From: Streptomyces tardus
GTDB lineage: Bacteria > Actinomycetota > Actinomycetes > Streptomycetales > Streptomycetaceae
Assembly (NCBI RefSeq): GCF_018101125.2
Contig: NZ_JAELVF020000001.1
Coordinates: 4,071,629-4,135,628, forward strand
Length of the DNA stretch: 64,000 nt
Reading direction: 5' to 3'
Part shown: positions 2 to 62,191 of the stretch, piece by piece
Position numbering within the stretch: the first letter of the stretch is position 1
How the letters are laid out: each line of letters starts with the position of its first letter
The notes under the pieces: generated by a model
What the model was told of the DNA's origin: nothing
The model's database searches: none
What the model saw: only the letters and a program-made list of their open reading frames with translations
Position numbers and translations under genes: made by a program

Positions 2-1516
2 GCGCTCATGGCCACCGCCGCGTTCGCCTACCCCGCGCTGGCCGCCGAGCGCGCGCCGAAGCCCGCCGCGTCGATCGAACTGACCGACGGCACCCTGGAA
101 TGGGGCGTCAAGGAGTCGTTCCGCAAGTACGTCACCGGGATCGCCATGGGCGAGATCACCGTCGACGAGGGCGCCGAACAGGCCGATGAAAACGGCGTGT
201 TCACCTTCTCCGGTGGCACCGGGACCTACGACACCGGCACCCATGCGGTCGACACCTCCTTCGAGGGCGGCGTCAACTTCGTCTCCAAGATCCACGGCTT
301 CGACATCAAGCTCGCCGACATCGAGCTGGTCACCGAGGACCGCGAGTCCGGGAAGATCACCGCGGACGTCACCCTCAACGGTGACACCACCGAGGACGTC
401 GACCTCGCCGACCTCGACCTCGCCGAGGTCGCTCCGGGCAGGGGCGACGGCGGCGAGATGACGTTCGACGACATCCCGGTGACTCTCACTGCCGATGGCG
501 CGGAGGCGTTCAACGGCATGTACGAGGAGGGCGCCGAACTCGACTCCGCCAGCCTCACCGTCAAGTCCGCAGCCACCGGCGGCGGCACGGGCGGCACGGG
601 CGGTACGGGCGGTTCCGGCGGTACGGGCGGCGACGGCGGTACGGGCGGTTCCGGCGGCAGTGCGGGCGGCACCGGCGGCAGCACGTCCGGCGGCGGGTCG
701 ACCGCCTCCGGCGGGCCGACCGGTGGCGGCTCCGACGCCCCCGCCGAGGCCGGCACCGTCGTCGACGGCAACCTCGACTGGGGCGTCAAGCAGTCCTTCC
801 GCAAGTACGTGGTCGGCCCGATCGGCAAGGGCAAGGTCGAGCTGAAGGACGGCGCCAAGGAGAACGGCGACGGCTACCGCTTCCCGGGCGGCAACGGCGA
901 GTACAACGTCGAAACCCCGGCGCTGGACGCCGCGTTCGACGGCGGAGTCGACTTCCTCGCGCACGCCGAGGGCGACGGCTACGCCCTGGAGCTGAAGTTC
1001 TCCGCGTTCAGGATCGACGCGAAGGCCGGCGGCAGCTCGCTGATCGCCGACGTCTCCTCCAAGGACCGCGAGTCCGGCAAGGTCACCGAGCACAAGGGCC
1101 TGGCACTGGCCAAGCTGACCGTCGCCGCGGACTCGCTCACGCCCGAGGGCGACGTCATCACCCTCCAGGACGTGCCGGCGACTCTCACCAAGCAGGGCGC
1201 GCAGGCGTTCGGCGGCTTCTACGAGGAGGGCGAGGCCCTCGACCCGGTGACCGCGGCCGTCTCGCTCTCCGACGACGCCGACCTGCCGGACGGCGACGGC
1301 TCGACCGGCGGCTCAAGTGGCGGTTCCACAGGCGGAGTTGACCCCGCCTCGGTGGGCGGCTCCTCGGGCACGGCCGGTACCGTGGGCGGGTCCGAGGCCC
1401 TCGCGAGCACTGGTGCGAGCGCTCCCACCGTTCCCCTCCTGGGCGGCGCCGCCGTCCTGGCCACGATCGGTGCGGCAGCGGTGTACGCCACCCGCCGCCG
1501 CTCCATGGAGAGCTGA
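2..1516 (+). CDS. HtaA-type heme-binding cell-wall protein, two HtaA domains, LAxTG anchor; 5' end outside window
   Basis: Surface protein expected to bind heme and pass it to a hemin importer. Two HtaA domains are visible (about residues 24-190 and 252-415, numbered from the ATG at position 8). Each opens with the same pattern, G-x-L-x-W-G-V-K-x-S-F-R-K-Y-V. A Gly/Ser/Thr-rich linker joins them (about 191-245). The C-terminus has LASTG at 465-469, a hydrophobic helix and an Arg-rich tail, which is the sorting signal of sortase-E (LAxTG) substrates in Streptomyces. The first visible residues look like the end of a signal peptide (AYPALA then AERAP), and the frame is open to the window edge, so the true start lies upstream. 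The heme oxygenase about 4 kb downstream fits the same heme-iron role, but it is a separate unit. Confidence 0.9.
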   Translation, partial: ALMATAAFAYPALAAERAPKPAASIELTDGTLEWGVKESFRKYVTGIAMGEITVDEGAEQADENGVFTFSGGTGTYDTGTHAVDTSFEGGVNFVSKIHGFDIKLADIELVTEDRESGKITADVTLNGDTTEDVDLADLDLAEVAPGRGDGGEMTFDDIPVTLTADGAEAFNGMYEEGAELDSASLTVKSAATGGGTGGTGGTGGSGGTGGDGGTGGSGGSAGGTGGSTSGGGSTASGGPTGGGSDAPAEAGTVVDGNLDWGVKQSFRKYVVGPIGKGKVELKDGAKENGDGYRFPGGNGEYNVETPALDAAFDGGVDFLAHAEGDGYALELKFSAFRIDAKAGGSSLIADVSSKDRESGKVTEHKGLALAKLTVAADSLTPEGDVITLQDVPATLTKQGAQAFGGFYEEGEALDPVTAAVSLSDDADLPDGDGSTGGSSGGSTGGVDPASVGGSSGTAGTVGGSEALASTGASAPTVPLLGGAAVLATIGAAAVYATRRRSMES

Positions 1517-1535
1517 CGGTCCAGCCCTCCGTACG

Positions 1536-1569
1536 CCGTGCCCGCCGGACCCTCCACCGGCGGGCACGG
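1536..1569 (+). terminator. Terminator after the HtaA gene
   Basis: Perfect 13-bp inverted repeat (arms 1536-1548 and 1557-1569, 8-nt loop), 20 nt after the stop codon. There is no T tract, which is common for Streptomyces terminators. It also faces the end of the convergent gene that stops at 1689. Confidence 0.7.
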
Positions 1570-1688
1570 ACGTGTCCGCACCCCCGGCCCCGCACGCCCC
1601 AGCGCTCCCCGGGGGACGGACGCGCCCGATCGCCGGCAGGTGTCACTCGGCCACTGTCCGCCGGGAGTTGGGCCCGAACCGCGGCGGC

Positions 1689-3206
1689 TCAGCGCGGCGG
1701 ACCCTCGGGAAAGCGGTCCAGGAAGTCGCGCCGGCTCGGCGCGGCCAGCGAGACACGCGCCCACGACCCGTCACGGAAGCCGAACTCACAGGACTGGCGG
1801 CTGATGTCCGGACGGGGGCGCAACCACACCACCTCTGTCCGGTCCACGACGAAGCCCGAGTCCACCGCTCCGAGCATCGACGGATGCGCACGGGCGCACT
1901 GCACGTACGCCACCCGCAGATGCCGATCGCTGAGCTGCACGACGTGGGTGACCCCGGTGGTGGGTGCGCGCGGGAAGAGCGCTGCCGCGAACCGACCCGC
2001 CTGACTGTCCCAACCGCCGCCCAGCGCACGGCCCCTGCCGCGCGGATGGCGCTCCGAGAGGTACTCCAGGAGAAGCGAGAAGGGGTACCCGAGCAGGCCC
2101 CACAGAAGCAGGCCGACCGACAGACACCGGCCCAGCGCCCGCCAGAACCCCCGCCAACGGTCTCCGGGCATTCGCAATCCGTCGAACGCGAGCGGCCTGC
2201 GTCCTCTGCGGGGCCGACGAAGGCGGTACCCGGGGCCGAGATGATGCGACGCCACCAGCCGTTCGTCGGCCGGCAGCACCAGCGCCGCCCGCTCCACGAC
2301 CTCTCGCTCCCTGCCGGTGTACCCGCTCCACCACTCCACCGGCTCGGACGGCGAGGGGCCCTGCGGACCCGCGGCGGCGGACGCCGTCGTCCCCGGCCGG
2401 GGTGCGGCCCCGCCGGCGGGCGCGGATGCGTGTGCGGGCGCGTGTGCGTGCGGGGGAGGGGAAGCGACCGCAGGAGCAGGCACGGGCACCGGGTGGGCCG
2501 AAGGAAGCGCGGACACCAGCGCAGGCACCGGCTCCTCGAAGCGCATGCGCACCCAGGAAGCGTCCGCGAACCCCAGGTCGTAGACTCCGCTGGTCTCGCT
2601 GGTGTGGTGCAGCCGCACCCAGGCGATCTGCGCCGTCGGCACCGACGGGCCGGCTTCCGCCATGCCGTGCGGACTGCCTCGCCGGCTCCGCTGCACATAG
2701 GTCAACAGCAGCCGCCGGTCGGTCAGTTGGAGCACCGGAACCACGTCGGTCGTGGTCCCCCGCGGGTACAGCGCGACAGCCAACACGTGGGCGAGGCTGC
2801 CCTGTCCGCCGCCGAGCGGCTCCGGCCCCGACTCGCCCGAGGAAGAACCCGACCCGAAGATCCTGCCGAACAGGCCGTCGAAGAGCCTGTCGAAGAAGTC
2901 GCTCATGCGTCGCAGGGGCCAGCCTGGCGCATGAAGGACCGTCCACATCCCGTCCTTGACGCCCTCCCAGCGGTCGCCCGGCATCCGCTGCCCGCGCAGC
3001 ACCTTCGGCCGGCGCCACCACCTCGGGCGCTCCAGCCCCGTCCCGGGCCCGACCTCCGCCGACGCCACCAACCGCTCACCGGCCGCAAGAACCACCGTCG
3101 CGCGCACCAGCGCACCGTCGGCTGCCGCCCCTGCAGGCGCACCCGAACCCGTCGGCCCGCCCGTCCCGACTCCCGGCGCCGTCGACCGGCCGTACATCTG
3201 TCTCAT
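1689..3206 (-). CDS. Actinobacterial protein of unknown function with an internal duplication
   Basis: About 505 residues. I do not recognise a family. The protein consists of two related halves. Each contains a block reading L-x-A-x-E-R-L-V-A-S followed by R-M-P-G-D-R-W, then a segment ending in V-V-x-L-[TS]-D-R-x-L, and a W-V-R/W-A-R-V motif. The halves are joined by a Pro/Ala/His-rich linker. The second half has one likely membrane helix (GRCLSVGLLLWGLLGYPF). An ATG at 3206 with a GGGAG Shine-Dalgarno is preferred over a GTG at 3305 that lacks one. It is transcribed alone and converges with the HtaA gene. Confidence 0.7.
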   Translation of the reverse strand: MRQMYGRSTAPGVGTGGPTGSGAPAGAAADGALVRATVVLAAGERLVASAEVGPGTGLERPRWWRRPKVLRGQRMPGDRWEGVKDGMWTVLHAPGWPLRRMSDFFDRLFDGLFGRIFGSGSSSGESGPEPLGGGQGSLAHVLAVALYPRGTTTDVVPVLQLTDRRLLLTYVQRSRRGSPHGMAEAGPSVPTAQIAWVRLHHTSETSGVYDLGFADASWVRMRFEEPVPALVSALPSAHPVPVPAPAVASPPPHAHAPAHASAPAGGAAPRPGTTASAAAGPQGPSPSEPVEWWSGYTGREREVVERAALVLPADERLVASHHLGPGYRLRRPRRGRRPLAFDGLRMPGDRWRGFWRALGRCLSVGLLLWGLLGYPFSLLLEYLSERHPRGRGRALGGGWDSQAGRFAAALFPRAPTTGVTHVVQLSDRHLRVAYVQCARAHPSMLGAVDSGFVVDRTEVVWLRPRPDISRQSCEFGFRDGSWARVSLAAPSRRDFLDRFPEGPPR

Positions 3207-51743: not shown

Positions 51744-54434
51744 GTGCTCCCCAATACTGCGCGCCGCGCACTGGCCGCCGTGCTGGCGGCCGGGCTGCTG
51801 GCGACGCTCGGCCCTGCCGCCGCGCAGGCCGAACCGCCCACCGCCGCAGCCCTGGACCTGTCGGAGTCGCGGGCCCTGTGGATCGACCGGAACACCGTGG
51901 TGTGGCCGTCGGGCGAGGGCGCGTCGTCCGCCGGGCTGTACTACGCCCCGGACGGCGGCGCCGAACTCGTCGACGGTGAACTCTCCGGCGCACCGAACGA
52001 GTTGAAGCTCGCGAAGGTGGGTGGCGGACTCACCGACGAGCAGCGCGCCGCTTTCCCGCACCTCGCGGGGCACGCCGCTTACTCGATCGCCGAGGACGAC
52101 CGGGACCGTGTCGCCGACGCGACCCGCGGCCAGCTCGTCGCCACCCAACGCGACGGCGACGGCGGGCTCACCGCGGCAAGCGGCGTACAGATCCCGGGAG
52201 TTCTGGACGACCTCTACGGCAGCGCCGCCCAACAGGCCGATCTGGGTCCGGTGTTCGCCGAGGACGGCACCCCGAGCCTTTCGGTGTGGGCGCCGACGGC
52301 GCAGAGCGTGGAGCTCGAACTCGACGGCGAGCGGCGCACGATGGAGCGGGACGACACCACCGGCGTGTGGCGGGCCTCCGGCGAGCGGGACTGGCTCGGC
52401 AAGCCCTACCGCTACCGCGTGAAGGTCTGGGCGCCGACCACCGGCGAGATGGTCGTCAACACCGTCACCGACCCGTACGCCACCGCGCTCACCGCGGACT
52501 CCGAGTCCGCACTCGTCGTCGACCTCGACGATCCCGCGCTCGCTCCGCGGGGTTGGGACTCCTACACCAAGCCGGCGGCGACGCAGCCGCGCGACGCACA
52601 GATCCAGGAGCTGCACGTACGCGACTTCTCCGTCGCCGACCCGACCGCCGAGCACACCGGCCGCTATCTCGCCTTCACCGAGCGGGACAGCGACGGCAGC
52701 CGCCATCTGCGCAAGCTGGCCGACGCCGGTACCTCCCACGTCCATCTGCTGCCCACCTACGATCTGGCCACCACCCCGGAGCGGACCGAGGACCAGGCGG
52801 TGCCCGACTGCGACCTCGCCGCGTTCCCCGCCGATTCGCCGGAGCAGCAGAAGTGCGTGGGCGCGGTGCGCGACGAGGACGCGTACAACTGGGGCTACGA
52901 CCCGCTGCACTACACCGTGCCCGAGGGCTCCTACGCCACCGACCCCGAAGGGCCCGGCCGCACCCACGAGTACCGGCGGATGGTCCGCGCGCTCAACGAC
53001 AGCGGACTGCGGGTCGTCCAGGACGTGGTCTACAACCACAGCTACGCGGCCGGCCAGGACGAGAAGTCGGTGCTGGACCGCATCGTGCCCGGCTACTACC
53101 AGCGGTTGATGGAGGACGGCGCCGTCGCCGACTCCACCTGCTGCCCCGGCACCGCGCCCGAGCACACCATGATGGGCCGGCTGGTCGTCGACTCGGTGGT
53201 CACCTGGGCGAAGCAGTACAAGATCGACGGCTTCCGCTTCGACCTCATGGCCCACCACCCGAAGGAGAACATCCTCGCGGTCCGTACAGCCCTGGACGAG
53301 CTGACCCCGGAGAAGGACGGCGTCGACGGCAAGCGGATCCTTCTGTACGGCGAGGGCTGGAACTTCGGCGAGATCGCGGACGACGCACGCTTCGAGCAGG
53401 CGTCCCAGGCCAATATGGCAGGTACCGGCATCGCGACCTTCAGCGACCGTGCGCGCGACGCTGTTCGCGGCGGTGGCCCGTTCGACGAGGAGCCGGGTGT
53501 CCAGGGCTTCGCCTCCGGTCTCTACACCGACCCCAACGACACCGCCGACAACGGCAGTCGGGACGAGCAGCGGGCCCGACTGCTGCACTACCAGGACCTG
53601 CTGAAGGTGGGGCTCACCGGCAGTCTCGCCGAATACACCTTCACCGACACCGCGGGTCGGCAGGTCAAGGGCTCGGAGGTCGACTACAACGGCTCGCCGG
53701 CCGGCTACGCGGGAGCGCCCGGCGAGGCCCTGGCGTACGCCGACGCCCACGACAACGAGTCCCTCTACGACGCTCTCGCCTACAAGCTGCCGACCGGCAC
53801 CTCGGCGGCGGACCGGGCCAGGATGCAGGTGCTGGCCATGGCCACCGCGGCCCTCTCCCAGGGCCCTGCGCTGAGCCAGGCCGGCACGGACCTGCTGCGC
53901 TCGAAGTCGCTGGACCGCAACTCCTACAACTCCGGTGACTGGTACAACACCATCAACTGGGACTGCTCCGCGGGCAACGGCTTCGGCCGCGGCCTCCCGC
54001 CTGCCTGGGACAACGAGCAGAACTGGCCGTACGCCGCGCCGCTGCTGACCCTGCCGCAACTGCGGCCGGGCTGCGCGGAGATCGACGCGGCCTCGGCCGC
54101 CTACCGCGACCTGCTCACCCTCCGCACCAGCGAGCCGGCCTTCTCCCAGTCAAGCACCGCGGACGTCCAGCGCGAGCTGGGCTTCCCGCTGTCCGGCACC
54201 GAGGAGACGCCCGGGGTGGTGACCATGCGCCTGGGCGAGCTGCTGGTCGTCTTCAACGCGACCCCCGAGACGGCCGAGCAGACCGTGACACAGGCGCAGG
54301 GCGGTTCGTACGCGCTGCACCGGGTGCAGGCCGACGGTGCGGACGAGCAGGTCAAGTCCGCCTCGTTCGACGCCGGCAGCGGCACCTTCACTGTGCCGGG
54401 CCGCTCGGTCGCGGTCTTCGACGGCCGGGGCTGA
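51744..54434 (+). CDS. pulA: Secreted pullulanase-type alpha-1,6-glucosidase
   Basis: 896 residues with a signal peptide (ALAAVLAAGLLATLGPAAAQA). Order: an N-terminal pullulanase N2-like region with alternating secondary structure, a CBM48-like domain (PSLSVWAPTAQSVELELDGERR to YRVKVWAP), and the GH13 barrel with the pullulanase fingerprint YNWGYDP. Nucleophile Asp500 in GFRFDLMAHH, acid Glu537 in YGEGWNFGE, Asp670 in ADAHDNES; the C-terminal domain follows. Debranches pullulan, amylopectin and limit dextrins outside the cell. GTG start. It follows the amylase in the same direction but after a terminator. Confidence 0.93.
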   Translation: MLPNTARRALAAVLAAGLLATLGPAAAQAEPPTAAALDLSESRALWIDRNTVVWPSGEGASSAGLYYAPDGGAELVDGELSGAPNELKLAKVGGGLTDEQRAAFPHLAGHAAYSIAEDDRDRVADATRGQLVATQRDGDGGLTAASGVQIPGVLDDLYGSAAQQADLGPVFAEDGTPSLSVWAPTAQSVELELDGERRTMERDDTTGVWRASGERDWLGKPYRYRVKVWAPTTGEMVVNTVTDPYATALTADSESALVVDLDDPALAPRGWDSYTKPAATQPRDAQIQELHVRDFSVADPTAEHTGRYLAFTERDSDGSRHLRKLADAGTSHVHLLPTYDLATTPERTEDQAVPDCDLAAFPADSPEQQKCVGAVRDEDAYNWGYDPLHYTVPEGSYATDPEGPGRTHEYRRMVRALNDSGLRVVQDVVYNHSYAAGQDEKSVLDRIVPGYYQRLMEDGAVADSTCCPGTAPEHTMMGRLVVDSVVTWAKQYKIDGFRFDLMAHHPKENILAVRTALDELTPEKDGVDGKRILLYGEGWNFGEIADDARFEQASQANMAGTGIATFSDRARDAVRGGGPFDEEPGVQGFASGLYTDPNDTADNGSRDEQRARLLHYQDLLKVGLTGSLAEYTFTDTAGRQVKGSEVDYNGSPAGYAGAPGEALAYADAHDNESLYDALAYKLPTGTSAADRARMQVLAMATAALSQGPALSQAGTDLLRSKSLDRNSYNSGDWYNTINWDCSAGNGFGRGLPPAWDNEQNWPYAAPLLTLPQLRPGCAEIDAASAAYRDLLTLRTSEPAFSQSSTADVQRELGFPLSGTEETPGVVTMRLGELLVVFNATPETAEQTVTQAQGGSYALHRVQADGADEQVKSASFDAGSGTFTVPGRSVAVFDGRG

Positions 54435-54668: not shown

Positions 54669-56726
54669 ATGCGAGCGACTCGAGCGAGTTCGGTCATGGG
54701 CGCGGTGGCACTTGCGGCGACGCTGGGGGCGACGCTGCTCGTCCCCGGAGCTTCGGCCCGTACGGCACCGGAGCCGGTCACCCAGCCAAGTACGCCGTCC
54801 CAGGGCTGCGACCCGATCGACCCGGCCGCCTGCCTGCTGCCGTTTCCCAGCAACTGGCACACGAAGAAGGACAGTTCGACCGAGACCGGGCGGCGGGTGG
54901 ACTTCGACCCGGCGTCGATGCCGCGCAACGTCCAGGGCACGGCGATCGACCCCACCGAGTGGAACCGCAGCGACGGCTTCTCGCCGGGCTCCATGCTGCT
55001 CGCCCGCGTTCCCGGCCTCGATCTGGACAGGACCGGCGCGGCGCCGATCACCGACATCGGCAGCTCGCTGGAGAACGACGCGCCGATCGTGCTGCTGGAC
55101 CTCACCACCGGTGAACGGTGGCCGTACTGGGCCGAGTTGGACGCGAACGCCGTCGGCCCGGACCGACAGGCGCTGATCGTCCGGCCCGCGAAGAACCTGA
55201 TCGCCGGCCACGACTACGCCGTCGCGCTGCGCGACCTCAAGGACGGCGACGGCAAGCCGATCGAACCGCCCACCGCCTTCGCCGACCTCCGCGCGGGCAA
55301 GGGCCCCGGTGAGGCGAAGGGCGCCGGTGAGCCGAAGGGCGCCGAGCGAGCGGCGCTTCGCCGGCGAGCTCGTCAACTGGCGCCCGCCTTCGAGGGGTTG
55401 GCGAAAGCCGGAGTGAAGACCGAACACGCCTACCTCGCCTGGGACTTCACCGTCGCCAGCACTCGCTCCCTGAGCGAGCGCATGCTGCACCTGCGCGACG
55501 ACTCCTTCGACCAACTCGGCGACGCTGCGCCCGAGTTCGTGGTCGGCGAGGTGACCGAGAACCCGGCGGACGATCCGATCGCCCGCTCGGTGCGCGGAGT
55601 CTTCAACATCCCCAGTTACCTCGACCGCCCCGGCGGACCGCCCGGCGCGGGCTTCGCGTACGACGAGCGCGGTCTGCCGCGGCGCACCGAGGGCAACAAG
55701 CAGATCGCCTCCTTCCAGTGCGAGATCCCGCGCAAGGCGCTCGCCGACCCCGCGGTGCCCGCGCTCTACGGCCATGGGCTGCTCGGTGCCGAGGGCGAGG
55801 TCGGCTCCGGGAGCATCACCGCGATGGCCGCCGAGCACAACCTGGCGTTCTGCGCCACCAAATGGGCCGGGATGTCCTCCGACGACCTCTCGTTCGTCGC
55901 CGAAACCCTCCAGGACCTCGGCAAGTTCCCGGCCGTACCGGACCGGCTCCAGCAGGGCATCCTGAACGGGCTGTGGCTCGGCAGGCTGCTCACGCACAAG
56001 GACGGATTCGCCTCCGACGAGGCGTTCCGCAACGACGCCGGCACCTCGGTGCTCGACGCCGACGCGGATCTCGCCTACTACGGCAACAGCCAGGGCGGCA
56101 TCATCGGAGGCGCGCTGACCGCCGTCTCCACCGAGGTCGAACGCTCGGCGCTCGGCGTCCCCGGCATGAACTTCTCCACGCTTCTCAACCGCAGCAGCAA
56201 CTGGGCGCCCTTCGAGCAGATCGTGGACACCGCCTACCCGGACAAGCTCGATCAACAGGTCAACCTGGCCCTCATCCAGATGCTCTGGGACCGCGGCGAG
56301 ACCAACGGGTACGCCCAGCACCTGACCCACGACCCGTTGCCCAACACCCCCGAGCACCGGGTGCTGATGCACGTCGCCTTCGGCGACCACCAGGTCTCGC
56401 CGAGCGCTGCCGAGGTCCAGGCCCGGACCGTCGGAGCGAGGATCCACCGGCCGACGGTCGCGGCCGGCCGGAACCCGGACAAGGAGCCCTACTGGGCGAT
56501 CGAGCCGTTGGAGTACCCCGCCTCGACCGGCTCGGCGATGGTCGTCTGGGACAGCGGCGCGCCCTACCAGCCCCTGACCAACACGGCGCCGAGCGAGGGC
56601 GCCGACCCCCACGGCGATCCCCGCAACGACAGGGCCGCCCGTGCTCAGACCGGCGAGTTCCTGCGCACCGGGAGGATCGTGGACGTATGTTCCGGGGCGC
56701 CCTGCGAAGCCGCTCCCCGGGGCTGA
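54669..56726 (+). CDS. Secreted alpha/beta-hydrolase-like protein of unknown substrate
   Basis: 685 residues with a signal peptide (VMGAVALAATLGATLLVPGASA). An N-terminal ~250 residues (CDPIDPAACLLPFPSNWHT, LIVRPAKNLIAGHDYAVALRDLKD) resemble a beta-sandwich lead-in seen in large secreted bacterial proteins with a Ser-hydrolase core. The core has a G-x-S-x-G elbow at Ser474 (AYYGNSQGGIIGGAL), preceded by LYGHGLLG. LMHVAFGDHQVSP supplies a candidate Asp/His pair. A charged insertion with KGPGEAKGAGEPKGAE looks like a recent repeat expansion. Substrate unknown (ester or lipid likely). Ends in a terminator shared with the convergent tetR gene. Confidence 0.72.
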   Translation: MRATRASSVMGAVALAATLGATLLVPGASARTAPEPVTQPSTPSQGCDPIDPAACLLPFPSNWHTKKDSSTETGRRVDFDPASMPRNVQGTAIDPTEWNRSDGFSPGSMLLARVPGLDLDRTGAAPITDIGSSLENDAPIVLLDLTTGERWPYWAELDANAVGPDRQALIVRPAKNLIAGHDYAVALRDLKDGDGKPIEPPTAFADLRAGKGPGEAKGAGEPKGAERAALRRRARQLAPAFEGLAKAGVKTEHAYLAWDFTVASTRSLSERMLHLRDDSFDQLGDAAPEFVVGEVTENPADDPIARSVRGVFNIPSYLDRPGGPPGAGFAYDERGLPRRTEGNKQIASFQCEIPRKALADPAVPALYGHGLLGAEGEVGSGSITAMAAEHNLAFCATKWAGMSSDDLSFVAETLQDLGKFPAVPDRLQQGILNGLWLGRLLTHKDGFASDEAFRNDAGTSVLDADADLAYYGNSQGGIIGGALTAVSTEVERSALGVPGMNFSTLLNRSSNWAPFEQIVDTAYPDKLDQQVNLALIQMLWDRGETNGYAQHLTHDPLPNTPEHRVLMHVAFGDHQVSPSAAEVQARTVGARIHRPTVAAGRNPDKEPYWAIEPLEYPASTGSAMVVWDSGAPYQPLTNTAPSEGADPHGDPRNDRAARAQTGEFLRTGRIVDVCSGAPCEAAPRG

Positions 56727-56830: not shown

Positions 56831-57574
56831 GGCCTGCGCGAGAGCCGTCCGGCCGGGGGAGCCGACGAGGGGCCCGTCCGCGACACCGGTCAGCCGCGCC
56901 ACCAGGGTGGCCAGCGGGCCGTCGGGGCCCTCGCCCGCCACCAGGGCGCGCAGCATCGTCGCCGTCTGCTCGTCGTAGGCCGCGGTCACCGCCGCGAGCG
57001 CGACGAGGTCGTCCACCAGGCGCGGCACCAACTCCTCGCGCGGAACGGCGCGTTCGGTGACCCAGCCGAACGCCGCCGTCTCGACCAGCCCGACCCACGA
57101 GGTGAGCAGCAGCCTGAGCCTCGGCCCGGGGTCGGCCAGCCGCAGGTGCAGGCGCATCTGTGCGTACGCCTTCTCCCGCACCCCCTCCAGCGCGGCGCCC
57201 TCCCGGGCCGCACCGGGGGTGGCGCCGCCGGCGCTGCCGCCGCGCAGCAGGGCGCAGAAGCTCGGGCCTTGTTCCTGGACGAAGTCGAAGTACCGGTTGA
57301 GCACACGGTTCAGACGGGCCGTCAGGGGCCCTTCGGCCGGTTCGACGAAGAGCGCGGTCAGCTCGTCGGCCGCGACCTGGACGGCGGCCTCGTACAGGCT
57401 GTGCTTGCCGGGGAAGTAGTGGTAGACCAGCGGCCGGGAGATCCCGGCAGCAGTGGCGATGTCGTCGATGGACACGTCGTCGGGGGAGCGGGTGCTGAAC
57501 AGCTCGAGCGCCACGGCGATGAGCTGCTGTCGGCGTTGCTCCGTGTCCATTCTGCGTCGAAGCGCGGTTGCCAT
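56825..57574 (-). CDS. TetR-family transcriptional regulator
   Basis: 249 residues. N-terminal TetR HTH (DTEQRRQQLIAVALELFSTRSPDDVSIDDIATAAGISRPLVYHYFPGKHSLYEAAVQ, about 9-68), then a helical ligand domain with LLTSWVGLVETAAFGWV near the pocket. AAGGTGGGCGG precedes the ATG. No obvious partner: the divergent gap leads to repeats and then a convergent gene, so the target may be its own promoter or a distant gene. Confidence 0.9.
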   Translation of the reverse strand: MATALRRRMDTEQRRQQLIAVALELFSTRSPDDVSIDDIATAAGISRPLVYHYFPGKHSLYEAAVQVAADELTALFVEPAEGPLTARLNRVLNRYFDFVQEQGPSFCALLRGGSAGGATPGAAREGAALEGVREKAYAQMRLHLRLADPGPRLRLLLTSWVGLVETAAFGWVTERAVPREELVPRLVDDLVALAAVTAAYDEQTATMLRALVAGEGPDGPLATLVARLTGVADGPLVGSPGRTALAQAP

Positions 57575-57708
57575 CCGCCCACCTTAGAACCTGCCCGGCG
57601 AATACCCGGAGTTGAAACGGTGTGGACACCAACAGGCTGTCCGCACACGGGAGTTCAGTGTGCATCACATGCATCGGAGGCGCACGGACGGCACCCGGGA
57701 GCGCGGCC

Positions 57709-57781
57709 CGTACGTACGCACTCCTCACGCGTACGTACGCACTCCTCGTGCGGGGCGTGCGCACTCCTCGTGCGGGGCGTG
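57709..57781. repeat. Two adjoining direct-repeat pairs upstream of tetR
   Basis: CGTACGTACGCACTCCTC occurs at 57709-57726 and 57730-57747. The overlapping 22-bp unit CGCACTCCTCGTGCGGGGCG (plus TG) occurs at 57738-57759 and 57760-57781. All copies share GCACTCCTC. The 57575-57842 gap otherwise holds no gene. Confidence 0.8.
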
Positions 57782-57842
57782 CGCGGGCTGCGGCTCCGGG
57801 CGGTTCGCCGCGCGGGGACGGCGAACCGCGCGCCGGGCGTGC

Positions 57843-59900
57843 TCACTTCAGCGGCCCCAGCTCCCCGCCGTCCGCGAGCGTCGCACGCAGCTTCGCCTTC
57901 GCGCCCTGCTCGACCGGTGTCATCATCAGCCGCCCCTCCACGCGCGTCTGCACTCCGCCCTCGGCGGTGATCGAGGTGACCCCCTCGCTGCCCACCGCCA
58001 GCAGGTACCAGGTGCCGCCGGGCGACTTCCACAGCGCTCCCGCCAGCGCCCGCGGATCGCGGGCTCCGCATTCGGCGCCGCCCTTCGCCCGGCCCACCAC
58101 CGCGGCCTGGGTGCCGGCCGGGGCCGGGGCCCGGAACTGCGCGTACGCCTGGCCCTGGCTGCCGCGCCAGGTGTCCGCCCTGGTGCACACCCAGGAGGCG
58201 GCCCCGGCGTTCTCGGGCAGCTGGTGGGAGCCGAACTGCCAGGAGTTGACCGACCGGACCCCCGAACCGCTCAGCACCGGCAACTGGCAGGCAGAGCCCG
58301 CGAGCAGCCGCCGAGCGGGTTCGGAGAGCGCGTCGACCGGCGCGGTGCCGGGCGTGCCGAAGGTGAGCCTGGCCGGGACGATCTCGCCCAGATCCGTGAG
58401 CAGGTACGGGCGTTCGCTCTTCGTCTGTGCGCGCAGCGCGGGCCAGCTCTCGCAGCGGCCGGTGCCCAGCGGCGGTGCCGGCAGCGGATCGCTCACGCCG
58501 TCGCTGCCGCGCCCGACTTCCTTCCCGGTGTCGTCGGGCTTGAGCAGGTCCACCGTGCTCAGCCGGCTCACCCAGGGAGCGGTGAGGTAGCGGGAGTTGG
58601 AGTCGCTCCGGGTGAGCAGCGCCGCCGAGGATCCGGCCGGGTCCGCGCCGTCGGTACGGGCGAAGTCCAGCCCGACCGGGCCCTGTTCGCCGCCCGCCGG
58701 CTCCGCGTACCGCACCAGTCGCAGCCCGTCGTGCAGCAGCACCAGGGAGGCGCCTTCCGCCTCGCCGGCGTAGAGCAGCTGTGCGGGGCCGGCCGCCGGG
58801 CCGGTCTGGGTGCCGGGTGTCGCGGTGACCTCGACCTGACGGCCCGGCCGGGCCCAGACCGCGAGCGCGCGGCTCAACAGGCGGTTGTCGTCGAGGAGTT
58901 CGCCGCGTGCGGGCCAGACGGAGAAGTCGGTCCTGGCCGACTTGCGCCACGCGCTCCCCGGCACTCGCACCAACTGCTCGGGGTCCAGGGCCTGTTGGGC
59001 CGCAGGATTCTGTGCGTACGCGGGGGCGGCGGCGCCGCTCGGACCCCAGCCCTCGCCCGGCATCCCGAGCAGCACGCCGAGCACGGCGAGCGCTGCGACA
59101 CCGATCACCAGGGCCCGGCGGTGCTGACGGCGGCGCAGCAGATCCGTGGGGCGCGCCCGCAGCACACTGGGGTCCAACCCCCAGCCGGCCGTCGGTACGT
59201 CCCGGCTGCCGGCCGGCAGCGGCACCCCGTCCGCCTCGTCCAACGCGTCGTCCGGATCGCCGACGCCGAGCGCCTCCAGCAGGTCGTACACCTCGTCGTC
59301 GCTCAGCCCTTCCAGGGCCTGCAGCGCGAATGCCGCCCGGCCCTCGCCCGAGCACTCGGAAAGGGCGCGATCCAGGGCGAGTTCGTCCTCGCTGCACATC
59401 CGGGGCAGCAGCCGCAGCCCTGCCGCCCGCGGCAGGCCGAGCCGAAGCCGGGGCCCGCGCCCGAGCCGCAACGGGCCGATCCGCCACGGGTGTTCGGCGT
59501 CCAGCGCCCGGCGCACCACCCGCATCCGCACGTAGGCGTACCCCGCGTCCGCGACTCCGCCGCCGGGTCCGCGCTGCGCCGGCAGCCGGGGATCGTCGGC
59601 GGCCCGGCCCCTGGGCAGCGCGCGCTGCACCACCTCGTGCGCCGTCAACACCCTGCGTTCGCGCCCCAGCGAGGCCGGGAGCGTGAGATGGGCGAGCCGC
59701 ACCAGCCGCGCGTAGTGCTCGACGATCACCGACTCGGCCACGTCGACGGCCACCGGGCCGGAACCCGACGCAGGAGTCGGCTGGTCGCGGGGGGCGTGCG
59801 GGTCCGGCGGAGCCGCACCGCCGGGCTGCTGCTCGTCGTCGGCCGGTGCCGTACCTGCTGCTCGGTCCGCGCGGTCGGAAGTCACGTCTGAAGGGGCCAC
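57843..59900 (-). CDS. Sigma-factor-like domain fused by one membrane helix to an extracytoplasmic domain
   Basis: 685 residues. After a disordered Pro/Ala-rich start, residues about 55-235 resemble a degenerate ECF sigma factor: a region-2-like helix set (VIVEHYARLVRLAHLTLP to AYVRMRVVRRALD) and a region-4-like set (LALDRALSECSGEGRAAFALQALEGLSDDEVYDLLEALGV). One membrane helix (RRALVIGVAALAVLGVLLGM, about 263-283) leads to a ~400-residue outer part rich in beta strands with five or more Cys. This would connect an outside signal to a cytoplasmic transcription-type domain. GTG start at 59900; Shine-Dalgarno weak. Function unknown. Confidence 0.7.
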   Translation of the reverse strand: MAPSDVTSDRADRAAGTAPADDEQQPGGAAPPDPHAPRDQPTPASGSGPVAVDVAESVIVEHYARLVRLAHLTLPASLGRERRVLTAHEVVQRALPRGRAADDPRLPAQRGPGGGVADAGYAYVRMRVVRRALDAEHPWRIGPLRLGRGPRLRLGLPRAAGLRLLPRMCSEDELALDRALSECSGEGRAAFALQALEGLSDDEVYDLLEALGVGDPDDALDEADGVPLPAGSRDVPTAGWGLDPSVLRARPTDLLRRRQHRRALVIGVAALAVLGVLLGMPGEGWGPSGAAAPAYAQNPAAQQALDPEQLVRVPGSAWRKSARTDFSVWPARGELLDDNRLLSRALAVWARPGRQVEVTATPGTQTGPAAGPAQLLYAGEAEGASLVLLHDGLRLVRYAEPAGGEQGPVGLDFARTDGADPAGSSAALLTRSDSNSRYLTAPWVSRLSTVDLLKPDDTGKEVGRGSDGVSDPLPAPPLGTGRCESWPALRAQTKSERPYLLTDLGEIVPARLTFGTPGTAPVDALSEPARRLLAGSACQLPVLSGSGVRSVNSWQFGSHQLPENAGAASWVCTRADTWRGSQGQAYAQFRAPAPAGTQAAVVGRAKGGAECGARDPRALAGALWKSPGGTWYLLAVGSEGVTSITAEGGVQTRVEGRLMMTPVEQGAKAKLRATLADGGELGPLK

Positions 59901-60095
59901 ATTGAGCAGAACGAGTGAATCCGCAGTTGGTCACTTGCCGCGCCGGCGCCGCTCGCCGCGCCCGCCGCACCGGGTCCGTACCCGCCGCACAGCGTCCGTA
60001 CCCGCCGTACGCCGCGCCCGCCGTACGCCGCAACTGCCCCGCCACGCGCCCGAACGCGCCCGTACACCCCGGCGGCGGCGAACCGGGGCCGGGTG
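59901..60095. other. Intergenic region, response-regulator end / sigma-like gene start
   Basis: 195 bases of repetitive CCGCC/GTACGCC sequence with no gene. A weak stem, CCCCGG (60067-60072) with CCGGGG (60083-60088), may terminate the two-component operon. Confidence 0.4.
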
Positions 60096-60752
60096 TCAGC
60101 TGCTGCTGCCGTGGTCCAGGTAGGCGAGCACGGCGAGCACGCGGCGGTTGCTGTCCTCGGCGGGCGGCAGCTGGAGCTTCTGGAAGATGTTCGCCGTGTG
60201 CTTGGCGATGGCCCGCTCCGTCACGACCAGGCGTTCGGCGATGGCCGCGTTGGAACGGCCCTGGGCCATCAGCTCCATGACCTCCTTCTCGCGCGGTGTC
60301 AGTGCGGCCATCGGACGGTCGCGCTCGCGTCGCGTCAGCAGCTGCTGGATGACCTGCGGGTCCATCGCGGTGCCGCCTGCGGCCACCCGCCGCACCCCGT
60401 CGATGAACTGCTCCGCGTCGAAGACCCGGTCCTTGAGCAGATAGCCGACCCCGCCGTTGCCGTCGGCGAGCAACTCCGAGGCGTACAGCTGCTCCACGTG
60501 CTGGGAGAGGACCAGCACCGGCAGCCCGGGCCGCTCCCGCCGGGCCTGCAGGGCGCACTGCAGGCCCTCGTCGCTGAAGGTCGGCGGCAGCCGTACGTCC
60601 ACCACGGCCACGTCCGGTCGCAGCTCGGCGAGCGCCTCGGTCAGTTCTGGTCCGCTCTCCACCGCCGCGGCGATCTCGAAGCCGAACGCCTCCAGCATGC
60701 GCACCAGTCCGTCGCGCAGGAGAAAGAGGTCTTCGGCCAGTACGACGCGCAC
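60096..60752 (-). CDS. NarL/FixJ-type response regulator
   Basis: 218 residues. Receiver domain with the acidic pair AED, the phospho-acceptor Asp52 in VAVVDVRLPP and the Lys of YLLKDRV. A LuxR-type HTH sits at the C-terminus (LTPREKEVMELMAQGRSNAAIAERLVVTERAIAKHTANIFQKLQL). GTG at 60752 with CCGGAG upstream. It follows the kinase gene by 161 nt in the same direction and is its obvious partner. Targets unknown; the His-rich membrane gene divergent from the kinase is a candidate. Confidence 0.93.
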   Translation of the reverse strand: MRVVLAEDLFLLRDGLVRMLEAFGFEIAAAVESGPELTEALAELRPDVAVVDVRLPPTFSDEGLQCALQARRERPGLPVLVLSQHVEQLYASELLADGNGGVGYLLKDRVFDAEQFIDGVRRVAAGGTAMDPQVIQQLLTRRERDRPMAALTPREKEVMELMAQGRSNAAIAERLVVTERAIAKHTANIFQKLQLPPAEDSNRRVLAVLAYLDHGSSS

Positions 60753-60913: not shown

Positions 60914-62191
60914 TCAGGGCCTGACCGGTCGGCAGGGGATCTCCATGGTGACCATCGTCGGGCCGCCGGGCGGGCTGCTGACCGCGAGCACACCGTCGAA
61001 CGGGCCGAGCCGCCGCTCCACGCCGGTGATGCCGGTGCCGCCCGCCGGATCCGCGCCGCCCCTGCCGGAATCGGTGATCGCTATCCGCAGCGCGTCCCGC
61101 TCGTAGTGCACATCCAGCCAGACCCGGTCGGCGCCCGAGTGCTTGGCCGCGTTGGTCAGCACCTCGCTGACGGCGAAGTACGCCGCGGACTCCACCGGCT
61201 CCTCGAAGCGGTCGGGCAACCGGACGTCCGTCTCCACCGTGAGCGGCATCCGCAGTGCCAGGGCTCGTACCGCGTCACCCAGTCCGCGTTCGGCGAGTAC
61301 CGGCGGATGGATACCGCGCACCAGGTCGCGCAGCTCGGTCAGCGCCTCGGCCGAGTTCTCCCGAGCCTGGCTGATCAGCTTCTTGGCGGTCGCCGGATCG
61401 CTCTCGATCAGTGCCTCGATGGTGCCGAGGGACATGCCCATGGCCACCAGGCGGGCCTGCGCACCGTCGTGCAGATCGCGTTCGATCCGGCGCAGTTCGG
61501 CGGCCGAGCTGCCCACCGCATCGTGCCGGGTCTCGTACAGCTCGCTCACCCTGCGGGTCAGGGCGTCCTTGGGCGGCGGCTTGAGGAGCGTGTGGGTGAG
61601 ACGGCCGTGCACCCCCATCAGCGGACGGGCCAGCAGCGGCCCGGCAGCGATCAGCAACACGCCCAGCCCGGCGGCGATCACCGCGGTGGGGAAGGAGTCG
61701 ACCGGTACGAAGAGGTACCAGTGGGTGTCGCCGGTGCCGCCCGAGGTGAGCGGGTCCCACAGCCACGGCAGCAGCACCCCGAAGATCCCCTGCGCGATCA
61801 TCCCCAGCGGGATGACCGCCAGAACCGCGCCCGCGGTGCCGTCCGCATGGACCCACAGCAGATCGCGCCAGGTCGAGGGGTCCCGGACCAGGGTGAGGAA
61901 CCGCTTGAAGTGGCCGGAGAGCCCCGGCTCTGTCGGCAGCCTGTGGTACGCGCTGCCCACCGGGATCCCGGCCCATGCCGCGTTCAGCTCACGGCGCTTG
62001 TTCGCGTACGCCCGCAGCGCCAGCACCGCGTACGGCGTGGTCAGCAGCCCGATGCCGGCGGCGGGCACGAGCGCCAGGGAGATGAGCAGCAGCGAGCCCA
62101 GAACGATGCCCGCCGTCATCGCGACGAGCCCCAGCCAGAATCCCCGTGCGGCGGCGAGCATCCCGCCCCGCACCCCCGTCGACCCGTCCAT
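60914..62191 (-). CDS. Sensor histidine kinase, NarL-partner type (HisKA_3)
   Basis: 425 residues. An N-terminal four-helix membrane sensor of the streptomycete putative-sensor type (helices about 13-60 and 115-190), then a dimerisation/phosphoacceptor domain with His241 in RIERDLHDGAQARLVAMGMSLG. The HATPase has the N-box VSEVLTNAAKHSGA, the G1 box ITDSGRGGADP and the G2 box GTGITGVERRL. Operon with the response regulator. A near-perfect palindrome about 100 nt upstream of its start may be the autoregulatory site. Confidence 0.93.
   Translation of the reverse strand: MDGSTGVRGGMLAAARGFWLGLVAMTAGIVLGSLLLISLALVPAAGIGLLTTPYAVLALRAYANKRRELNAAWAGIPVGSAYHRLPTEPGLSGHFKRFLTLVRDPSTWRDLLWVHADGTAGAVLAVIPLGMIAQGIFGVLLPWLWDPLTSGGTGDTHWYLFVPVDSFPTAVIAAGLGVLLIAAGPLLARPLMGVHGRLTHTLLKPPPKDALTRRVSELYETRHDAVGSSAAELRRIERDLHDGAQARLVAMGMSLGTIEALIESDPATAKKLISQARENSAEALTELRDLVRGIHPPVLAERGLGDAVRALALRMPLTVETDVRLPDRFEEPVESAAYFAVSEVLTNAAKHSGADRVWLDVHYERDALRIAITDSGRGGADPAGGTGITGVERRLGPFDGVLAVSSPPGGPTMVTMEIPCRPVRP

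Follow-up and report, generated by a model that had tools for sequence, protein, structure and literature searches.

A candidate sigma mimic: a conserved membrane protein of Streptomyces carrying a remote ECF sigma-like domain

Introduction

Membrane-fused ECF sigma factors have been described. The examples given in PMC8999054 and PMC5826349 are ECF48, ECF52, ECF53 and IutY. According to these accounts, proteolysis activates IutY and is expected to activate ECF48, ECF52 and ECF53 as well (PMC8999054; PMC5826349). Hence, the layout of a sigma factor plus a membrane anchor is already known.

PhyR is a sigma mimic, or anti-anti-sigma factor, of the alphaproteobacterial general stress response. 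Its partner is NepR. To our knowledge, PhyR of Alphaproteobacteria is the main known case of sigma mimicry, and there it is driven by a kinase cascade. As set out in PMC8103513, PhyR has a correct ECF structure in which the promoter and RNA polymerase regions are degenerate, and it titrates an anti-sigma factor. A phosphorylated receiver domain acts as the switch in the descriptions given by PMC8103513 and PMC4598750.

Here, we describe a protein encoded in a 64,000-nucleotide stretch of the 6.16 Mb Streptomyces tardus genome (G000:C2:4071629-4135628), referred to as the window. Streptomyces is a genus rich in sigma factors. Like ECF52 (SCO4117), ECF48, ECF53 and IutY (ECF243), the window protein has a cytoplasmic ECF-type part, a membrane helix and a large extension in one chain. 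Unlike the window protein, those four are taken as working sigma factors. The resemblance to PhyR lies in a predicted ECF fold, in apparently degenerate polymerase and promoter contact regions and in weak sequence and structural matches. Unlike PhyR, a membrane helix and outer domain take the place of the receiver domain, for which Pfam gave no Response_reg match in the window protein, and no NepR-like partner is known.

Results

One chain joins a cytoplasmic helical domain to an outer domain

Features of the locus are listed in Table 1. The open frame of 685 residues was present on the minus strand as first reported. In the family alignment, the N-terminal start is variable and common to few homologues. 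The true start may be further downstream, as few homologues align across the first 20 residues. Briefly, the chain runs from a sigma-like helical domain (about residues 52-229) through a juxtamembrane segment and a membrane helix to the outer domain. A scan of window positions 57500-60400 identified no promoter and no terminator (expected, 0.1 and 0.3, respectively). Tandem repeats are found just downstream of the gene (window 57709-57784, 22-base unit, 3.3 copies) and just upstream (window 59961-60007, 20-base unit, 2.3 copies).

Table 1. Positions, in window coordinates, of the gene, its predicted parts and two neighbours
Feature	Position	Strand	Basis or remark
Whole gene	57843..59900	-	685 aa, GTG start as listed
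Sigma region 2-like part, residues 52-134	59499..59747	-	A2 alignment, AF2 helices, hhalign to ECF factors
Region 2.2-like motif TAHEVVQRAL, residues 86-95, where ECFs have DAED-xVQE	59616..59645	-	
Linker, residues 135-170, with conserved xxGLRxFP segment (predicted strand 162-166)	59391..59498	-	
Sigma region 4-like part, residues 171-229	59214..59390	-	Homologue model scans, PDB profile search, hhalign
Stretch replacing the -35 recognition helix, residues 210-229, net charge -6	59214..59273	-	
Conserved cytoplasmic juxtamembrane motif, residues 241-262	59115..59180	-	
Membrane helix, residues 263-281, N-in	59058..59114	-	
Outer domain, residues 286-685, beta-rich, pLDDT 94.6, last ~70 residues Ig/FN3-like	57846..59045	-	
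Conserved Cys483	58452..58454	-	
Conserved Cys538	58287..58289	-	
Conserved Cys572	58185..58187	-	
Conserved Cys611	58068..58070	-	
Upstream NarL/LuxR-type response regulator	60096..60752	-	Neighbour, possible functional link
Upstream histidine kinase with PF13796 sensor	60914..62191	-	Neighbour, possible functional link

The membrane helix was anticipated by the original prediction. From residue 263, mean hydropathy is 2.45 over 19 residues. Seven K/R residues flank the helix before its start and none after its end. Mean hydropathy is at least 1.6 at this position in 102 of 103 aligned family rows, and K/R are in excess on the N side in 101 of 103 (average K+R 5.3 before, 0.4 after). Hence, by the charge rule, the N end is inside. 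Immediately before the helix, the family motif is E-F-D-P-C-x-L-x-x-R-P-T-D-L-x-R-R-R. The common family Cys of this motif is replaced by Ser245 in the window protein.

An outer domain of about 400 residues containing cysteines had also been foreseen, and four cysteines proved to be conserved. Counting rows with a residue at the position, Cys483 is kept in 99/99, Cys538 in 98/98, Cys572 in 98/98 and Cys611 in 98/99; the four or five rows with gaps are four short forms without outer domain plus, at two positions, L084. The domain is probably disulphide-bonded. The structural model is confident (pTM 0.91, with the pLDDT of Table 1). No sequence relative was found in the PDB at E up to 10. Foldseek returned five matches with E up to 0.001, the best (1.2e-4) being nucleoporin and ROS1 chains, with TM-scores of 0.20 or less among the 50 matches listed. 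Using VIA-align, good alignment was obtained for the last 70 residues only (Ig/FN3-like, best Z 6.8). These searches gave no clear relative for the outer domain as a whole. Two paralogues, L064:5953-7437 (plus strand) and L065:5872-7362 (plus strand), have the membrane helix and outer domain and no sigma-like domain. Hence, the outer domain can be retained without the sigma-like part. Part of the juxtamembrane motif is kept in L064.

The inner domain is a remote relative of ECF sigma factors

Scanned alone, the window protein matched no Pfam family at E up to 10. Nothing in NCBIfam scored above cut-off; a sigma model gave E 0.08 and an unrelated model E 0.16. The sigma-like module is absent from this single-sequence scan and emerges from family comparison. 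We scanned 54 homologues singly. TIGR02983 (SigE family sigma) was matched in 15 of these, with a best E of 3.2e-5 that, judging by E-value, puts the matches far below the model cut-off of 141.55 bits. Sigma70_r4_2 was also matched in 15/54 (best E 0.0016). The PhyR model of the scan that included TIGR02983 was matched in 12/54 (best E 0.02) and the Pfam PhyR model in 4/54 (best E 0.076). TIGR02983 is thus the best family-model match among homologues. Unlike SigE family factors, the window protein has no DAED motif and no basic recognition helix.

A 79-row profile returned ten PDB sequences with E up to 1 (best E 0.0073). Three are named SigE and seven are named response regulator or sensory transduction protein. 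Two of the seven, 4qic and 9by5, are named PhyR; the remaining five we take to be PhyR-type. We then aligned the 79-row domain alignment to 20 ECF factors of the same genome using hhalign. The local probability was 94.4% (E 9.2e-8, 138 columns), and the global comparison of the same pair gave 94.9% (E 1.1e-8). The local alignment spans region 2 to region 4. For 17 controls, of which one was the ECF alignment reversed and 16 were neighbour families without relationship, probability was at most 0.7%. In a genome search, the domain profile reached past its own family to ECF-sized frames. One such frame of the same genome (G000:C2:3881265-3881651) was reached at E 3.0e-5, and is an ECF factor (TIGR02937, 105.6 bits vs a cut-off of 42.9). 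We conclude that the kinship with sigma factors is remote but real, and beyond chance.

The AlphaFold2 model of residues 45-252 has pLDDT 83.4 and pTM 0.82, with a poor linker stretch. Searched against the PDB with Foldseek, the model had no significant match (best E 0.77), yet the first six rows were ECF factors. By structural alignment, the first eight rows were ECF factors or PhyR (rmsd 3.4-5.3, 118-149 residues aligned). Their Z scores ran from 9.4 to 6.9, with row nine at 3.5, in a range (under about 13 for helical folds) that can reflect a common arrangement. The chains are SigG1 of Streptomyces tsukubaensis, SigW, PhyR, RpoE and CnrH. For five of the eight best-aligned entries, the name indicates a complex with an anti-sigma factor. 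When aligned at length to four ECF chains bound to polymerase, the model gave rmsd 28.5-29.1; hence, the predicted domain is compact. The model suggests a sigma2 and a sigma4 fold, in that order and without sigma3, again with remote kinship. The original prediction was of a degenerate ECF-type region 2/region 4 module whose structure should resemble sigma factors. Both hhalign, with its controls, and the structural alignment agree with it.

Polymerase and promoter contact motifs are degenerate

In ECF factors, as described in PMC8103513, the DAED motif of region 2.2 is negatively charged, contacts the positive beta' clamp of RNA polymerase and is essential for holoenzyme formation. We counted the corresponding residues in 100 family rows, after dropping L064, L065 and L124 (domain missing or frame-broken). 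No acid occupies the DAED tetrad in 93 rows, one acid is found in five and two acids in two. For comparison, 19 of 20 ECFs have two or more. Both two-acid rows are short forms with a lipoprotein neighbour and without outer domain. Therefore, their behaviour need not apply to the window protein. The commonest tetrads are TAHA (42), AAHA (17) and TAHS (13) in a 102-row count; the window protein has TAHE. The residue following the conserved region 2.2 glutamine is arginine in 85/100 rows, and acidic in 17/20 ECFs.

Region 4.2 tells a similar story. The 20 residues replacing the -35 recognition helix have a mean net charge of -2.6 in the family (range -8 to +3, n=100) compared with +3.9 (range 1 to 7) in the 20 ECFs. 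A positive stretch remains in 11 of the 100 rows. After thinning to 34 rows below 70% identity, two or more acids were found in 1/34, mean charge was -1.85 and 5/34 were positive. At the level of sequence, the polymerase and -35 contact motifs are lost while the predicted fold is kept. The inner domain probably no longer reads promoters itself. The original prediction named a lack of RNA polymerase contact residues as grounds for refutation, and such a lack is what the sequences show. The proposal of a one-protein signalling route stands in its anatomy and is not supported where the protein would act as a sigma factor.

We also considered phosphorylation at the DAED position, as described for EcfP in PMC8103513. 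Threonine is first in the tetrad in 60/100 rows and alanine in 21/100. Hence, this would not be general.

An ECF52-type protein of the same genome differs from the window protein

The same genome encodes an ECF52-type protein (L155, G000:C2:2377867-2380373; gene 379-2424, minus strand; 682 aa) that provides a natural control for the window protein. It has a membrane helix. Sigma70_r2, zf-HC2 and NPCBM are over their cut-offs in this protein, and Sigma70_r4_2 is under its cut-off. ECF52 factors feature a zinc finger, a proline-rich stretch and a carbohydrate-binding module, whereas the window protein has no Pfam family. A blastp comparison of the two proteins gave no relationship (best E 0.41). 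Membership of ECF52 was rejected, as the zinc finger and NPCBM domains and similarity to L155 are absent.

The family is conserved and includes short forms

The family is conserved. At E up to 0.001, matches were found in 45 of 61 genomes searched, including that of the window. The 16 genomes without a match comprise two of the same genus, five of the same order and nine of the same class. All ten named relatives are Streptomyces, the closest (L039) being 94% identical. In a wider draw of the class, the full-length profile matched 58/394 genomes, the weakest of these being short or incomplete hits that have a sigma-like part but no outer domain. The outer-domain profile matched 9/296 genomes across the phylum, all of the same genus; this is an undercount because nearly full-length members were found in other families by other searches. 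In several genomes, the full-length protein is encoded at least twice. Within blocks 61-80 and 161-180 of the sigma-like domain, the frequency of the commonest residue averages 0.85 (56 rows). Parts of the linker and of the juxtamembrane segment are highly conserved, with one predicted strand in each.

Pfam and NCBIfam leave the family unnamed. It is likewise unnamed in the titles and abstract openings searched, a coverage outside which the main ECF reclassification paper lies. The same literature search identified no report of a membrane-fused layout combined with sigma mimicry. The S. coelicolor orthologue may lie near SCO2217-2222, a guess from gene order for which we claim no tag.

Short forms (278-313 aa), found in another family of the class, consist of a sigma-like domain and a membrane helix. 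At L128:2581-5117 (plus strand) and L130:10019-12543 (minus strand), the end of such a protein overlaps the start of a lipoprotein-like gene. The overlapping pairs, from two genomes of one genus, encode proteins of 309/313 aa and a lipoprotein-like protein of 533 aa. Peripla_BP_6 is matched by the L128 lipoprotein-like copy (2.2e-38). Both loci also encode, a few kb away, another sigma-like membrane protein, of 278 aa. A further protein, of 150 aa (L129:2974-3423, minus strand), is hardly more than a degenerate sigma-like domain.

Gene neighbourhood is loose

In the window, the gene order is histidine kinase, response regulator, the 685-residue frame of Table 1 and a TetR regulator, all on the minus strand. 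We compared 59 loci including the window, some near-identical, with flanks of about 6 kb and clusters formed by single linkage. A kinase was found at 23 loci, a regulator at 15 and either at 25. A TetR gene was present at 22 and a homologue of window 51744-54434 at 24. None of these four neighbours was found at 22. For a second family, the kinase is likewise present in 7/10 loci. We rejected a fixed operon with the kinase and regulator, as other genes often lie in between.

No sigma or anti-sigma gene was identified among the window neighbours or the ten neighbour examples scanned. The latter comprised a tyrosine phosphatase, a metal hydrolase, DUF1996, NAGLU, a ferredoxin-type oxidoreductase, LacI, a kinase, an epimerase, Rrf2 and an NAD-binding protein. 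Separately, window 54669-56726 (plus strand) encodes another protein of 685 aa with no Pfam match over cut-off. In the neighbourhood maps, its cluster was seen only in the window, L039 and L133.

Discussion

Our preferred interpretation, held tentatively, is that the protein is a one-pass, N-in membrane sigma mimic. Its outer domain would control cytoplasmic binding of a sigma partner, most likely an anti-sigma factor. The cytoplasmic domain probably descends from an ECF sigma factor and has lost, at the level of sequence, the residues that bind RNA polymerase and the -35 element. The outer 400-residue domain may sense something outside the cell or in the envelope. The signal could travel by way of the membrane helix and of the conserved segment next to it, changing exposure of the sigma-like domain. 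This closed domain might then hold, or release, a cytoplasmic protein that partners real sigma factors, an anti-sigma factor being the likeliest. The proposed binding is modelled on that of PhyR with NepR. The analysis shows the anatomy, the charge-based topology, the ECF kinship, the loss of both contact motifs and the conservation, whereas disulphides, sensing, the anti-sigma partner and the switching direction are inferred.

A kept fold with lost contact residues argues that the domain mimics a sigma factor and does not act as one. We count in favour of this interpretation the PhyR-like degenerate regions together with the weak PhyR matches. Strong conservation of the sigma-like domain, despite the lost contact motifs, is counted likewise. 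So too is the L128-type lipoprotein-like protein, which would give an inner domain of this kind a ligand-binding partner outside the cell. Against this interpretation, we count the lack of a sigma or anti-sigma gene among the neighbours scanned, the lack of a significant Foldseek match, Z scores that can reflect a common arrangement, the 11/100 rows with a positive region 4.2 stretch and the paralogues that keep the outer domain without the sigma-like part. The short forms with a lipoprotein neighbour are also those with two-acid tetrads, which limits their bearing on the window protein.

Nearly as likely is that the sigma fold has been kept as a scaffold and binds outside the sigma network. 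Its target could be the neighbouring kinase or regulator, a membrane protein or its own chain. The protein would then serve as a sensor in the envelope, or in a structural role, and would not take part directly in sigma control. Loss of both contact motifs is consistent with this, as is the lack of a sigma or anti-sigma gene among the neighbours scanned. The kinase or regulator flanking 25 of the 59 loci, the kinase in the second family and the highly conserved linker and juxtamembrane parts, with their predicted strands, also point this way. However, synteny is loose; intervening genes occur in many maps and 22/59 loci lack all four tracked neighbours.

A working membrane-tethered sigma factor that regulated proteolysis sets free, a mechanism proposed for ECF52 and demonstrated for IutY, is less favoured than a mimic or a scaffold and we consider it improbable. 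The layout is shared with ECF52 and IutY as these are described in PMC8999054 and PMC5826349. However, the DAED tetrad lacks any acid in almost all rows and the mean charge of the region 4.2 stretch is negative. In addition, Pfam finds no zinc-finger anti-sigma segment in the window protein, and the predicted domain is compact when set against polymerase-bound ECF chains. Least likely is a decoy or inhibitor directed at RNA polymerase, which would still bind some part of the enzyme and either block it or retain it at the membrane. In favour, 87/100 rows keep the region 2.2 glutamine (Q92), but the arginine that usually follows is opposite to what the positive beta' clamp needs, as stated in PMC8103513.

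Returning to the sigma mimic, a broader version can be proposed, which we regard as doubtful. Transmembrane sigma mimics might be widespread in actinobacteria. They would be PhyR-like decoys, in which an outside ligand frees or traps a sigma factor without phosphorylation or proteolysis. Fused or partner sensor domains would switch such proteins directly. If the mimic interpretation is true, sigma mimicry would extend to Actinobacteria and be linked directly to the envelope, and a conserved, unnamed protein would gain a testable role.
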